DNA from: Alphaproteobacteria bacterium
Lineage (GTDB): Bacteria; Pseudomonadota; Alphaproteobacteria; Caulobacterales; Caulobacteraceae
Assembly (NCBI GenBank): GCA_025359785.1
Contig: JANYET010000067.1
Span: 1-64,000, forward strand
Length of the DNA: 64,000 bases
Direction of reading: 5' to 3'
Below, piece after piece: positions 39,633 through 43,585 of this stretch (the first letter of the stretch is position 1; each line of letters begins with the position of its first letter). A program made the position numbers and the translations under genes. The notes under the pieces are model-generated. The model searched no databases, was not told the origin of the DNA, and saw only the letters and a list, made by a program, of their open reading frames with translations.

Positions 39633-39711
39633 GAGCCGTCTGAGCGGCGAGGCTTGCGATGCGCGAAGATGACGCTATCTCCCGTCCATCGATTTGCGAG
39701 GAACGGATCCC

Positions 39712-40194
39712 ATGACCATCAAAGTTGGCGACAAGCTGCCCAGCGTCACCCTCACCGAAGCCACCGCCGACGGGCCCAAGCCGGTCACCACGGACGCCTT
39801 CTTCGGCGGCAAGACGGTCGCCCTGTTCGCGCTGCCGGGCGCGTTCACGCCGACTTGCTCGGCCAAGCATGTACCCGGCTTCAAGCAGCTGGCCACCCAG
39901 ATCAAGGGCAAGGGCGTTGACGTGATCGCCTGCCTGTCGGTCAACGACGCGTTCGTGATGCGCGCCTGGGGCGAGGACCAGGCCGTGGGCGACGACATCG
40001 TCATGCTGGCCGATGGCGGGGCGGAGTTCACCGATGCGGTCGGCCTGGCCTTCGACGCCTCGCGCTTCGGCATGGGCAAGCGCTCGCAGCGCTATTCGAT
40101 GATCGTCACCGATGGCGTGGTGAAGGAACTGAACATCGAGGAAGGCGGCGAATTCCGCGTCTCGGCCGCCGACTACCTGCTGGCCCAGCTTTAG
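39712..40194 (+). CDS. Peroxiredoxin, Prx5-type
   Basis: 160 aa from the ATG at 39712, with GAGGAA upstream; the track's start is six codons earlier. Reduces hydroperoxides in the cytoplasm using the peroxidatic cysteine in PGAFTPTCSAKHVPGF (Cys about 49, with the Thr and Pro of the PxxxT/SxxC signature). The rest ('VNDAFVMRAWGEDQ', 'GKRSQRYSMIVTDGVVKELNIE') is Prx5/AhpE-like, glutaredoxin- or glutathione-dependent in relatives. A perfect palindrome covers the stop codon. Confidence 0.94.
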   Translation: MTIKVGDKLPSVTLTEATADGPKPVTTDAFFGGKTVALFALPGAFTPTCSAKHVPGFKQLATQIKGKGVDVIACLSVNDAFVMRAWGEDQAVGDDIVMLADGGAEFTDAVGLAFDASRFGMGKRSQRYSMIVTDGVVKELNIEEGGEFRVSAADYLLAQL

Positions 40195-40396: not shown

Positions 40397-40696
40397 CTAC
40401 TTCGGGGTGGTCATCGCCCCGGTCGACATCGAGCCGGCCGACATGGCGGCCATCGGCTTCTTCTTCATGGCCTTCTTCTTCATCGGCGCTTTCATCGCGC
40501 CGTCCTTCATGGCGCCGTCTTTCATCGCATCGCTCTTCATCGGCTTGGCCATGGCGCCGGTGGACATCGAGCCGGTGGACATCGAACCCGTGGACATGGC
40601 GCCGGCCGCGGGCTTGTCCTGGGCCAGGGCGCCCCCGGAGATGGACGCGGCGAGCGTCAGGGCGGCCAGGCCGGTCAGGGTGTTGCGAAGCATCAT
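40397..40696 (-). CDS. Secreted Met-rich pentapeptide (MXKDX-type) repeat protein
   Basis: 99 aa. A signal peptide (MMLRNTLTGLAALTLAASISGGALA) is followed by pure low-complexity sequence: MSTGS/MSTGA repeats, then MKSDAMKDGAMKDGAMKAPMKKKAMKKKP. The five-residue spacing of Met and the KD units match the MXKDX pentapeptide-repeat family of small exported proteins. Regularly spaced methionines suggest binding of soft metals such as copper, which is inference. It lies 94 bp downstream of the DUF1223 gene on the same strand and may be in the SigF-controlled unit. Confidence 0.8.
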   Translation of the reverse strand: MMLRNTLTGLAALTLAASISGGALAQDKPAAGAMSTGSMSTGSMSTGAMAKPMKSDAMKDGAMKDGAMKAPMKKKAMKKKPMAAMSAGSMSTGAMTTPK

Positions 40697-40789: not shown

Positions 40790-41494
40790 TCAGCTCCTGG
40801 CGGCTGCCAGGATCGGGCCGCCGGATCCGGCCTGCACCAGGACGGCGGTCTTCAGGTTCGCGGGCCCGGTCGGCACGGCGTAGGTCCGGGTCCCGCCCGT
40901 CCAGTCGCCCAGCCGGGTGAGTTCGCGCACCGCATGCTGCACGGAAAGCGTCTTGCCGCCGTTTTCGCCGCGCTTGATCGGCACCTGAATGGCGTTGGGT
41001 TCATAGCGCACCAGCCAGACCTCGGCGGCGCGCGGCGGCGCGGCGCCGGTGATCGCCACATTGCCGCCGGCCAGCGTCACCTGCGGCCCGCCCGCCGGCA
41101 GGGCGGCGCGGCGCAGCGCCCCGTCGATCTCCGGAACGCTCTGGCCGACCACGTCGGTGCGGCCGTTCACCACCACCTGCGGGGTGCCGACATTGCCGTG
41201 CTTCAGGCCACGCGCGTAGGCCCACTGCCGGTCGGTGAACTTCGACTGGGCGAAGGTGTCCTTCCAGCCGAGGTTGTCCCAGTAGGTGACGCCGAAGGAG
41301 AGCGCGAGGATCTCCGGCCGCGCGGCCAGCTGCGCCACCGCCGCGTCGGCGGGCGGACAGGACGAGCAGCCCTGGCTGGTGAACAGCTCGACCACCTGCA
41401 GCGGCGCGGGCTGAGCCGAGGCGGCGCCCGCCAAGGTGGCCCCCGACAAGGTGACGAGGGTCAGCGTGGCGGCCAGTGCGATCGGCGTTTTCAT
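40790..41494 (-). CDS. DUF1223 exported thioredoxin-like protein
   Basis: 234 aa from the ATG at 41494, preceded by CGGGAGAAG; the track starts 12 codons earlier. A signal peptide (about 1-28, ending ASA) leads to a DUF1223 domain with a thioredoxin-like CxxC: VELFTSQGCSSCPPADAAVA (Cys about 43 and 46). Conserved 'YWDNLGWKDTFAQSKFTDRQWAYARGL' and 'TPQVVVNGRTDVVG' follow. It is likely a periplasmic redox or metal-stress protein. Its promoter is a perfect GTAACC-N16-CGAA site divergent from the sigF operon promoter, so it is a predicted SigF target. Confidence 0.88.
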   Translation of the reverse strand: MKTPIALAATLTLVTLSGATLAGAASAQPAPLQVVELFTSQGCSSCPPADAAVAQLAARPEILALSFGVTYWDNLGWKDTFAQSKFTDRQWAYARGLKHGNVGTPQVVVNGRTDVVGQSVPEIDGALRRAALPAGGPQVTLAGGNVAITGAAPPRAAEVWLVRYEPNAIQVPIKRGENGGKTLSVQHAVRELTRLGDWTGGTRTYAVPTGPANLKTAVLVQAGSGGPILAAARS

Positions 41495-41523
41495 CGTCTT
41501 CTCCCGGAAAGCTCGATGATAGG

Positions 41524-41549
41524 TTCGCAACGGAACGCGGTTCGGTTAC
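41524..41549 (-). promoter_or_regulatory. SigF-type ECF promoter for DUF1223 gene
   Basis: Read on the minus strand: GTAACC, 16-bp spacer, CGAA. This matches the -35/-10 pattern I recall for Caulobacter SigF promoters. The start codon of the DUF1223 gene is 30 bp after the CGAA. Confidence 0.7.
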
Positions 41550-41562
41550 CTACCGGTGGCCT

Positions 41563-41587
41563 GTAACCTTTCGCGGCGCGTTGCGAA
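41563..41587 (+). promoter_or_regulatory. SigF-type ECF promoter for sigF-nrsF
   Basis: GTAACC, 15-bp spacer, CGAA on the plus strand; the GCGTTG/CCGTTG bases before CGAA are also shared with the divergent promoter. It implies autoregulation of sigF. The spacer is one base shorter than in the opposite promoter. Confidence 0.62.
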
Positions 41588-41603
41588 GTCCACAAAGGCG
41601 GCG

Positions 41604-42164
41604 TTGGACGAGATCGAACCCAGACTGCGAGGCTTGATGCTCGCCGGCCTCGCCGGGGAGGCCGAGCCCTATCGCCGGCTTCTGAATGAGCTCAGCGGAC
41701 TGCTGCGCGGCTTCTATGCCCGCCGCTGCCCGCCGGGCGTCGATGCTGAGGATCTGGTGCAGGAAACGTTGATCGCCGTGCATACCCGCCGAGCCACCTA
41801 TGACGTCGGCCAGCCCTTCACCGCCTGGGCCTATGCGATCGCGCGCTACAAGCTGATCGACGCGCTGCGCCGCGGCCGCGCCCACCTGCGCGCGCCGCAG
41901 GAGGAGGCTGACGCGCTGTTCGCACCGCCCGAACTGCGTGGCGGCGCCGAGGCCGCCATGGCCGCCCGCGATCTGGAGCGCGTCCTGGCTGACCTGCCGG
42001 AGCGATCGCGCGCGCTGATCCGCGACGTGAAGATCACCGGCCTGTCGACCCGCGAGGCGGCCGAGAAGCACGGCATGACCGAGAGCGCCGTGAAGGTGGC
42101 CGTCCACCGGGGCCTGAAGGCGCTGGGCGGCAAGTACGGGGGCTCCGATGTCGGCGAAGACTGA
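41604..42164 (+). CDS. sigF: ECF sigma factor, SigF-like
   Basis: 186 aa from the TTG at 41604, which has AAAGGCGG just upstream and lies after the promoter; the track's GTG at 41556 would sit upstream of the promoter. Sigma region 2 ('FYARRCPPGVDAEDLVQETLIAVHTRRATYDVGQPFTAWAYAIARYKLIDALRR') and region 4 ('LPERSRALIRDVKITGLSTREAAEKHGMTESAVKVAVHRGLKAL') are complete. The gene downstream encodes a DUF1109 protein of the NrsF type, which identifies this as the SigF system that in Caulobacter responds to heavy metals. The two genes overlap by 17 bp. Confidence 0.87.
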   Translation: MDEIEPRLRGLMLAGLAGEAEPYRRLLNELSGLLRGFYARRCPPGVDAEDLVQETLIAVHTRRATYDVGQPFTAWAYAIARYKLIDALRRGRAHLRAPQEEADALFAPPELRGGAEAAMAARDLERVLADLPERSRALIRDVKITGLSTREAAEKHGMTESAVKVAVHRGLKALGGKYGGSDVGED

Positions 42165-42795
42165 CGACCTCATCCAGAGCCTTTCCGCCGACCTGCCGAA
42201 GGTTGCGCCGCGCGCCGCCGCGCGTCGGGTGGCGTTGGGCCTCAGCTTGGGCGGCGCGGCCTCGGCGGTGCTGATGCTCGCCTGGCTGCACCCGCGCCCG
42301 GACCTGGCCCAGGCGGTCATGACGCCGATGTTCTGGATGAAGTTCGGTTATGCGGCGGCGACGGGCCTGATCCTGGCCGGAGTGCTCACGCGCCTCGCCA
42401 AGCCCGCCGCCAGGCCCGGCGTCTTGGCGACTGTCGCGGTCGCGCCGTTCGCGGTGGTGGCGCTGATGGCTGTCGGCCGCTTCGTCCAGACGCCGCCGGA
42501 GGCCCAGCACGCGCTGCTCATGGGTCACTCATCCATGCTCTGCCCCTGGCGGATCCTGGCCATCGGCGCGCCGATGCTGGCCGGCGCGATCTGGGCGGTG
42601 CGAGGGCTGGCGCCGACGCGCCTGATGCTGGCGGGCCTGGTGGCCGGCGGCTGCGCGGGCGGCCTCGGCGCGGCGATCTACGCCATCGCCTGCAACGAGA
42701 CTTCCGCCCCGTTCCTGGCCATCTGGTACACCCTGGGCATGATGGCCCTGGCCGTGACCGGCGGCCTGGCCTCGCGCCTGATGCGCTGGCGCTGA
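42148..42795 (+). CDS. nrsF: DUF1109 anti-sigma factor, NrsF-like
   Basis: 215-aa inner-membrane protein with about six helices and a short cytoplasmic N-terminus. DUF1109 proteins hold SigF inactive until metal stress. Cysteines at about 132 (SSMLCPWR) and 182 (AIACNETS) are in positions recalled as needed for sensing in Caulobacter NrsF. The start overlaps the sigF end by 17 bp, giving coupled, balanced synthesis. The next gene converges 4 bp after its stop. Confidence 0.87.
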   Translation: MSAKTDDLIQSLSADLPKVAPRAAARRVALGLSLGGAASAVLMLAWLHPRPDLAQAVMTPMFWMKFGYAAATGLILAGVLTRLAKPAARPGVLATVAVAPFAVVALMAVGRFVQTPPEAQHALLMGHSSMLCPWRILAIGAPMLAGAIWAVRGLAPTRLMLAGLVAGGCAGGLGAAIYAIACNETSAPFLAIWYTLGMMALAVTGGLASRLMRWR

Positions 42796-42799
42796 GCGC

Positions 42800-43585
42800 C
42801 TATTTCCGCTTCAGCATAGCCGCCTGGACCGCGGTCATCGGCAGCTCGTCCAGCGTCAGCTTGCCGTCGCCATTCTTGTCCAACGCCTTGAAGCGCCGGT
42901 CGGCGGCGGCCAGGAACTCGGCCTTGCTGACGCGGCCGTCGAGGTTGCTGTCGGCGGCGCGCACCGGCTCGATCTCCGCCAGCAGGCCATAGGGCGCGGC
43001 CCCGATCAGGCGCCGTTTTTCGGGCCGCCGGGCGCCCAGATCGTCGGCCGGACCCTTGGCGGTGTTGTCGGGATTGTAGCCGCCGTGCGTGTTGCCGATG
43101 CCGGGGTGGCCGCCCTCCGGCGTCTGGACGACCTGCGCCAGCCAGAGCCGGGCCCCGGCCCGCTCCGGATGGGTCAGCAGGCTCAGGCTGTTTGGCCCCA
43201 GTGCGTCTGGTCCCAGTACGTCGGGCACGACCTGGGTCTCATAGAATTTCACCTCCGGCCCATCGAGATAGCCGTTGTCGTCGGAATCCAGCGCCTCGAA
43301 GAACCCCTGGTGATCGGCGCGGAACTCCGCGCGGCTGATCGCGCCGTCGTGGTCCAGGTCGGCCTGTTTGAACCACAACACCACCGGATAGGGATCGCCC
43401 GGCTTGCCGCGGTAGGGCTCGCCGCAGGGGCTGATGAACAGCTGGGTATAGCCGGCCGCGGCGGGACCTCTGGCGCCGATTCCATTGCTTCCGGCCCCAT
43501 TACTTCCGGGTTGGGTCAGGCCTTGCTGGAAGGCGGCGCTGGCCAGCGCCACCGCGATCCCCAGACGGACTACCGCTCTGCGCAT
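42800..43585 (-). CDS. Secreted EF-hand protein
   Basis: 261 aa with a signal peptide (hydrophobic 8-20). Four EF-hand-like Ca-binding loops are visible in two pairs: DLDHDGAISRAEF, DSDDNGYLDGPEV, DSNLDGRVSKAEF and DKNGDGKLTLDEL. The pair spacing and the D-x-D/N-x-D-G pattern imply calcium binding in the periplasm or outside. Between the pairs lies a non-repeated region with many Gly/Pro. No enzymatic domain seen. It ends 4 bp from nrsF in convergent orientation and is 3 bp downstream of the racemase gene, likely co-transcribed with it. Confidence 0.85.
   Translation of the reverse strand: MRRAVVRLGIAVALASAAFQQGLTQPGSNGAGSNGIGARGPAAAGYTQLFISPCGEPYRGKPGDPYPVVLWFKQADLDHDGAISRAEFRADHQGFFEALDSDDNGYLDGPEVKFYETQVVPDVLGPDALGPNSLSLLTHPERAGARLWLAQVVQTPEGGHPGIGNTHGGYNPDNTAKGPADDLGARRPEKRRLIGAAPYGLLAEIEPVRAADSNLDGRVSKAEFLAAADRRFKALDKNGDGKLTLDELPMTAVQAAMLKRK

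Follow-up and report, generated by a model that had tools for sequence, protein, structure and literature searches.

A candidate bidirectional SigF promoter linking a DUF1223 gene to a predicted methionine-repair regulon in a Phenylobacterium-group genome

Genes and promoters at the sigF locus

The locus analysed here is part of a window of 64,000 nt (the whole stretch of DNA that was read) and contains two divergent gene sets, separated by a 111-bp intergenic region (41494-41604) that holds two SigF-type promoters (Table 1). On the right, the sigF product matches Pfam models Sigma70_r2 and Sigma70_r4_2 above cut-off, as an ECF sigma factor with regions 2 and 4 only. We place its start at a TTG, which is conserved together with the surrounding sequence in the closest relatives; a GTG at 41556, taken from the mechanical ORF list, was rejected because it falls within the promoter. 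Directly downstream, the nrsF product matches PF06532 with 193 bits (cut-off 26.8) and does not reach the stricter NCBIfam NrsF equivalog model (157 versus 300). Its two cysteines stand at the positions of C131 and C181, the residues that control NrsF of Caulobacter crescentus (PMC3511200). We conclude that the locus is a SigF/NrsF (ECF16) system in a Phenylobacterium-group genome; the SigF/NrsF identity had been predicted and fits both the literature (PMC3511200) and the 57 sigF/nrsF loci described below. Convergent with nrsF, the minus strand encodes an exported EF-hand protein (42800-43585), which gives a weak match to a lanmodulin (lanthanide-binding) model (47.6 bits, cut-off 135).

Table 1. 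Features of the locus, numbered from the first nucleotide of the window
Feature	Position	Strand	Remarks
Met-rich MXKDX-like protein, apparently exported	40397..40696	-	99 aa, 16% Met; 93 bp downstream of DUF1223
DUF1223 gene, exported two-domain protein	40790..41494	-	predicted: thioredoxin-like domain at the N-terminus (CSSCPP), beta domain at the C-terminus
SigF-type promoter of DUF1223 gene (predicted)	41524..41549	-	-35 GTAACC 41549-41544, N16 (GAACCGCGTTCCGTTG), -10 CGAA 41527-41524; 29 nt upstream of DUF1223 ATG
Gap between the two -35 hexamers	41550..41562		13 bp; length invariant in DUF1223-type loci, sequence varies
SigF-type promoter of sigF-nrsF (predicted)	41563..41587	+	-35 GTAACC 41563-41568, N15 (TTTCGCGGCGCGTTG), -10 CGAA 41584-41587; 16 nt upstream of sigF TTG
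sigF, ECF16-type sigma factor	41604..42164	+	TTG start, 186 aa; Pfam, start codon kept in relatives
nrsF, anti-sigma factor DUF1109/NrsF	42148..42795	+	215 aa; Cys132, Cys182

The product of the divergent gene belongs to the DUF1223 family (PF06764, 194 bits against a gathering score of 30.7) and resembles a solved member, 2AXO, in sequence (E=4.5e-36). Its AlphaFold (AF2) model (mean pLDDT 80, pTM 0.79) retrieved the same DUF1223 structure with Foldseek (E=7.5e-15); beyond 2AXO, the search returned only weak, meaningless matches. Judging from the model, from weak profile matches and from the CxxC, the N-terminal part appears to be of the thioredoxin-like kind. Both the CSSCPP motif and a Thr-Pro pair (T104-P105) are invariant among SigF-linked DUF1223 members.

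The next gene on the minus strand is probably co-transcribed with DUF1223. It had been described as encoding a Met-rich MXKDX protein; the gene is real, but its product scores 30.3 bits against NCBIfam TIGR02953, below the curated cut-off of 41, and hence we call it MXKDX-like only. As a constant downstream partner of DUF1223 it was rejected, since it follows DUF1223 in 6 of the 10 DUF1223-linked loci, a count that, like the low score, we hold against our main model. Convergent with it on the plus strand is a gene for a Redoxin-family peroxiredoxin (39709-40194), and here the order of genes is unchanged in several relatives that lack the MXKDX-like gene.

An exact pattern search recovered both back-to-back sites as originally predicted, including the N16 spacer on the minus strand, the N15 spacer on the plus strand and the 13 bp between the -35 elements. 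They are the only GTAACC-N14-17-CGAA matches in the window, where 0.09 are expected, and none of 100 shuffles gave two. The Caulobacter consensus GTAACC-N16-CGAA, which the prediction had named, agrees with PMC3511200 and with the 57 loci; tGTAACc-N16-CGAA was scored as present before sigF and its targets, the spacer before sigF here being 15 against a consensus of 16. The motif in a single genome is weak evidence, because a scan of the whole genome for GTAACC-N15-16-CGAA, proposed as a check, did give nine sites but was barely enriched over the reversed pattern, which gave five. We therefore treat the whole-genome count as insufficient proof on its own; the significance of the motif comes from comparative footprinting.

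Conservation of the promoter pair and of DUF1223 as a target

A match to NrsF was found in 58 of 149 relatives, 55 of them over the curated cut-off, and 57 sigF/nrsF loci, the window included, were compared. Nearly all of these have GTAACC-N15/16-CG[AT]A upstream of sigF, which suggests that sigF is autoregulated, as predicted and consistent with the literature (PMC3511200); we count against our model that autoregulation of C. crescentus SigF under chromium is weak (PMC3511200). In one set of loci the divergent gene encodes the precursor of a bufferin (DUF2282, with a Pfam check in one case) and is accompanied by an MNIO gene; in another, it is DUF1223. All ten DUF1223-linked loci fall in one fully supported clade of 13 in the SigF-NrsF tree, and for the other three members of this clade (L050, L053, L056) the stretch read contains no DUF1223 gene. 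By gene order, then, DUF1223 occupies in Phenylobacterium the position of the bufferin (MNIO) genes of other SigF loci. A bufferin gene cluster in the window's own genome was rejected, as MNIO (PF05114) has no match there.

The spacing of the promoter pair is conserved along with the genes. All eight loci with an intact divergent layout, and L050 as well, have 13 bp of widely varying sequence between the -35 elements; in other sigF loci this gap ranges from 33 to 82 bp. The minus-strand element beside sigF is decayed in L053 and L056, which lack DUF1223 in the stretch read, and also in L060 and L064, where DUF1223 is displaced by 0.8-1.1 kb; each of the displaced genes has its own copy of the motif 30 bp upstream of the ATG. 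L050 retains the -35 but has CGAG as its -10. Transcription starts about 6 nt past the -10 (PMC3420878), so the two starts would lie about 75-80 bp apart and two polymerases would therefore overlap upstream. Competition between polymerases at the two promoters is thus possible.

In the sigF-bufA intergenic regions of bufferin-type loci (L042-L045, L062 and others), where 33-35 bp separate the -35 hexamers, this spacer often contains a T-rich tract in GC-rich DNA, which may be a shared upstream (UP-like) element; no such tract is present in the 13-bp gap of DUF1223-type loci.

The DUF1223 genes of Phenylobacterium are of two types, well separated in a DUF1223 tree. Among CSSCPP-type genes in genomes with SigF, the motif lies 9-49 bp before the ATG (chosen by rule) in all 14 distinct, fully read cases, including genes unlinked from sigF, such as L103 and L101. 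It precedes none of three CSSCPP-type genes in genomes without SigF and none of 26 genes of the other type, to which the motif-free second DUF1223 copy of the window's own genome (L109) belongs. A scan of 90 DUF1223 upstream regions gave 9/47 with the motif in SigF-positive genomes versus 0/43 in SigF-negative ones (p=0.003, optimistic, like our other p-values, in that related genomes are not independent), and an opposite-strand control of the same 90 regions gave no match. Some of the exceptions scored as SigF-negative in our comparisons are incomplete or contaminated assemblies (e.g., G036, 74% complete). Further afield, 23 of 80 DUF1223 loci from GTDB, mostly alphaproteobacterial, have the motif upstream, among them loci from Caulobacter, Brevundimonas, Sphingomonas, Neorhizobium and Devosia. 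The only opposite-strand matches in this set were three, all of them sigF's own promoters.

These comparisons bear on the simplest alternative, namely that the minus-strand site resembles the motif by chance, that only the sigF promoter works, and that DUF1223 uses some other promoter. Such an explanation would sit comfortably with the near-control count of the genome scan. It is, in our estimation, highly improbable given the strict co-conservation of the motif with CSSCPP-type DUF1223 and SigF, the decay of the element where DUF1223 is missing or has moved, its absence from the paralogue type and its recurrence in distant genera. The co-conservation strongly supports the prediction that SigF directly controls an exported CxxC protein of the DUF1223 family. 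In the literature searched, where two papers name DUF1223 and both, judged by title and abstract, deal with other subjects, we did not find DUF1223 as a conserved ECF16 target.

Other predicted targets of SigF

Elsewhere in the window's own genome, a cytochrome b561 gene (L009/L186, PF01292) likewise has the exact motif upstream and is followed on contig C65 by a gene for an MsrP-like catalytic subunit (Oxidored_molyb, PF00174, 124.8 bits). This promoter is found in 20/34 SigF-positive versus 2/36 SigF-negative genomes (p=1.3e-6), with 0/70 in the opposite-strand control. The partner of the MsrP-like protein is thus a cytochrome b561 and not an MsrQ-type haem membrane subunit, which we also count against our main model.

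Variants of the motif with CGTA as the -10 occur only twice in the genome. One (L397, G000:C52:56303-56328) lies 9-15 nt before a gene for MsrB (SelR, PF01641) with a twin-arginine signal, and is conserved in 12 of 16 SigF-positive genomes against 1 of 14 SigF-negative ones (p=2e-4). MsrB is absent from the published C. crescentus SigF target lists that we searched. The other variant (L396, G000:C10:4464-4489) is 50 nt before a gene for a small exported hypothetical protein of 129 aa.

Two further candidates cannot be placed firmly in the regulon by such counts. For a DsbD-type gene, the motif is present in 4/17 SigF-positive versus 0/13 SigF-negative genomes, a difference that is not significant (p=0.11), and the motif before an exported Prx-like gene (L002/L156, G000:C2:33584) recurs at the same distance in 2/7 and 2/11, respectively. 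Sites L001, L006 and L008, which have no convincing downstream gene, were treated as chance matches, as was L007, 133 nt before a 5-aminolevulinate-synthase-like gene.

In other genera several of the proposed targets stand together. Phyllobacterium (L334, L342) and Chelatococcus (L341; its DUF1223 and MsrP-like genes show up in the mechanical ORF list as fragments of frames only) have DUF1223, MXKDX-type, cytochrome b561 and MsrP-like genes in a row, divergent from sigF-nrsF, and in L319 the same row is followed by sigF-nrsF. As read from gene order, the Phyllobacterium and Chelatococcus rows link pieces that stand dispersed in the window's genome. Met-rich MXKDX-type proteins are encoded within these DUF1223 operons at 3712-4105 in L334, at about 3775-4070 in L342 and at about 3740-4000 in L341; those of Phyllobacterium and L319 contain cysteines, and the MXKDX-like protein of the window has none.

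A predicted methionine-repair regulon and its alternatives

Earlier work on Caulobacter, Sinorhizobium and Brucella already established the promoter consensus, autoregulation and the presence of a divergent target operon (PMC3511200, PMC6180224, PMC8315932). The divergent layout as such is not unusual, because ECF16 genes often lie divergent from their target operon; what is new is the gene that is targeted, DUF1223. ECF16 regulons are known to include methionine-sulfoxide reductases (PMC8315932, PMC3420878, PMC8224329), and in Caulobacter, Brucella, Azospira and Bradyrhizobium stress-released pairs of the SigF/NrsF type control Met-rich proteins as well as MsrP-type or other Msr genes (PMC3511200, PMC8224329, PMC8315932, PMC4623255, PMC3420878).

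Each of these systems resembles ours in part. C. crescentus shares the ECF16 factor with NrsF and its two cysteines, GTAACC-N16-CGAA, a divergent target operon (PMC3511200, PMC8224329) and an MsrP-type Oxidored_molyb target; its divergent operon, however, is of the bufferin/MNIO type (DUF2282-DUF692-DUF2063-DoxX), and no DUF1223 target was reported there. In Sinorhizobium meliloti, the gene for the ECF16 factor RpoE7 and its strongest target operon are likewise divergent and each have GTAAC...CGAA, but the target is a bufferin-type DUF692/DUF2063 operon (PMC6180224). The ECF16 pair BcrS/AbcS of Brucella melitensis is divergent from bcrXQP, a Met-rich MXKDX gene plus an Msr system, with TGTAACC...CGAA on both strands (PMC8315932); it differs from ours in having no DUF1223, MsrP and MsrQ in one operon, and about 38 bp between -35 elements (from the coordinates in Table 1 of PMC8315932). 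Azospira suillum SigF/NrsF, as related in PMC4623255 and PMC8315932, controls a periplasmic Met-rich sink and a methionine-sulfoxide reductase (mrpX-yedYZ); no DUF1223 is described in those accounts, and the window's genome has dispersed Msr genes instead, MsrB included. Finally, the autoregulated ECF16-type pair EcfF/OsrA of Bradyrhizobium has a regulon of methionine-sulfoxide reductases, DsbD-like and periplasmic thioredoxin proteins, and its authors proposed that the latter two feed the exported methionine-sulfoxide reductase (PMC3420878). Here the differences lie in the promoter -10, CG(t,a), and in the thioredoxin partner, Bll1026, which is not a DUF1223 protein (PMC3420878).

On this basis we propose that the intergenic region acts as a bidirectional SigF promoter. 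Upon release by NrsF, SigF would transcribe sigF-nrsF to the right and DUF1223 with the MXKDX-like gene to the left; from near-identical promoters elsewhere, it would drive the cytochrome b561-MsrP-like pair and the MsrB exported by Tat, and probably also a thiol exporter of the DsbD type. The encoded proteins would jointly form a periplasmic system for methionine-sulfoxide repair and oxidant scavenging. In it, the Met-rich protein may offer its methionines as a sacrificial sink, methionine sulfoxide would be reduced by the MsrP-like enzyme and by MsrB, and DUF1223, with its thioredoxin-like CxxC, would handle the electrons of thiols, perhaps on their way from DsbD to MsrB. DUF1223 would then fill the place of the periplasmic thioredoxin of Bradyrhizobium. 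We assign this reading as a whole, in which SigF controls a regulon for periplasmic methionine repair and DUF1223 is its thiol-redox component, a probability of roughly 0.72. Sequence comparison supports the promoters, their conservation and the predicted regulon membership of DUF1223, MsrB and cytochrome b561-MsrP-like; we infer the inducing signal, the inactivation of NrsF here and the biochemical role of DUF1223. We refine the metal-stress theme implicit in the checks that the original prediction proposed: the likely function is defence against periplasmic oxidants and methionine sulfoxide (HOCl, Cu, dichromate), and not against metals alone.

It is also possible, though we think it unlikely, that the promoters are real and the regulon mainly handles copper or other soft metals, with DUF1223 and the Met-rich protein binding or trafficking periplasmic Cu(I) in place of the copper-buffering bufferins. 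CxxC and Met-rich proteins are able to bind Cu(I), and DUF1223 stands at the bufA/MNIO position of other Phenylobacterium SigF loci in a genome that itself lacks MNIO. Moreover, C. crescentus SigF is induced by copper, and a sigF mutant is copper-sensitive (PMC8224329). DUF1223 is not simply a bufferin substitute, however, because an unlinked DUF1223 gene behind the same promoter is present in several SigF genomes of the bufferin type, too. MsrB and the MsrP-like enzyme, as co-targets, indicate methionine-sulfoxide repair, and the Brucella MXKDX/Msr operon, bcrXQP, is induced by HOCl (PMC8315932).

Alternatively, SigF may control DUF1223 for general periplasmic disulfide chemistry, as a Dsb-like isomerase or oxidase, the response reflecting thiol damage by chromate, copper and oxidants. 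We hold this to be distinctly unlikely: the predicted thioredoxin-like fold and CxxC, and the motif before a DsbD-type gene in four SigF-positive genomes, would suit it, whereas it is at odds with the rows in which Phyllobacterium, Chelatococcus and L319 join DUF1223 to MXKDX-type, cytochrome b561 and MsrP-like genes.

Under the methionine-repair reading, DUF1223, a little-studied domain of unknown function, gains a regulon, a compartment and partners, and with them a testable job. If electrons pass from DsbD via DUF1223 to MsrB, as predicted, this would explain how these bacteria re-reduce their exported MsrB. ECF16 systems are then variations on one theme, in which a methionine sink, methionine-sulfoxide reductases, thiol redox proteins or a bufferin are interchangeable modules under the same promoter. 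A bolder version, which we regard as speculative and rather unlikely, would give SigF-linked DUF1223 a specialised and hitherto unassigned role, common among Alphaproteobacteria, as the periplasmic thioredoxin-like reductant (or as a thiol-copper relay) that serves exported methionine-sulfoxide reductases in ECF16 regulons. In Phenylobacterium it would have replaced the bufferin operon, and the 13-bp spacing of the bidirectional promoter would have been selected for competition between the two polymerases, coupling the level of SigF to target output.

Some Phenylobacterium genomes have two SigF/NrsF pairs (L046 and L067 in G059; L047 and L051 in G045). The promoter motifs of these pairs are near-identical, and cross-talk between them is therefore expected.
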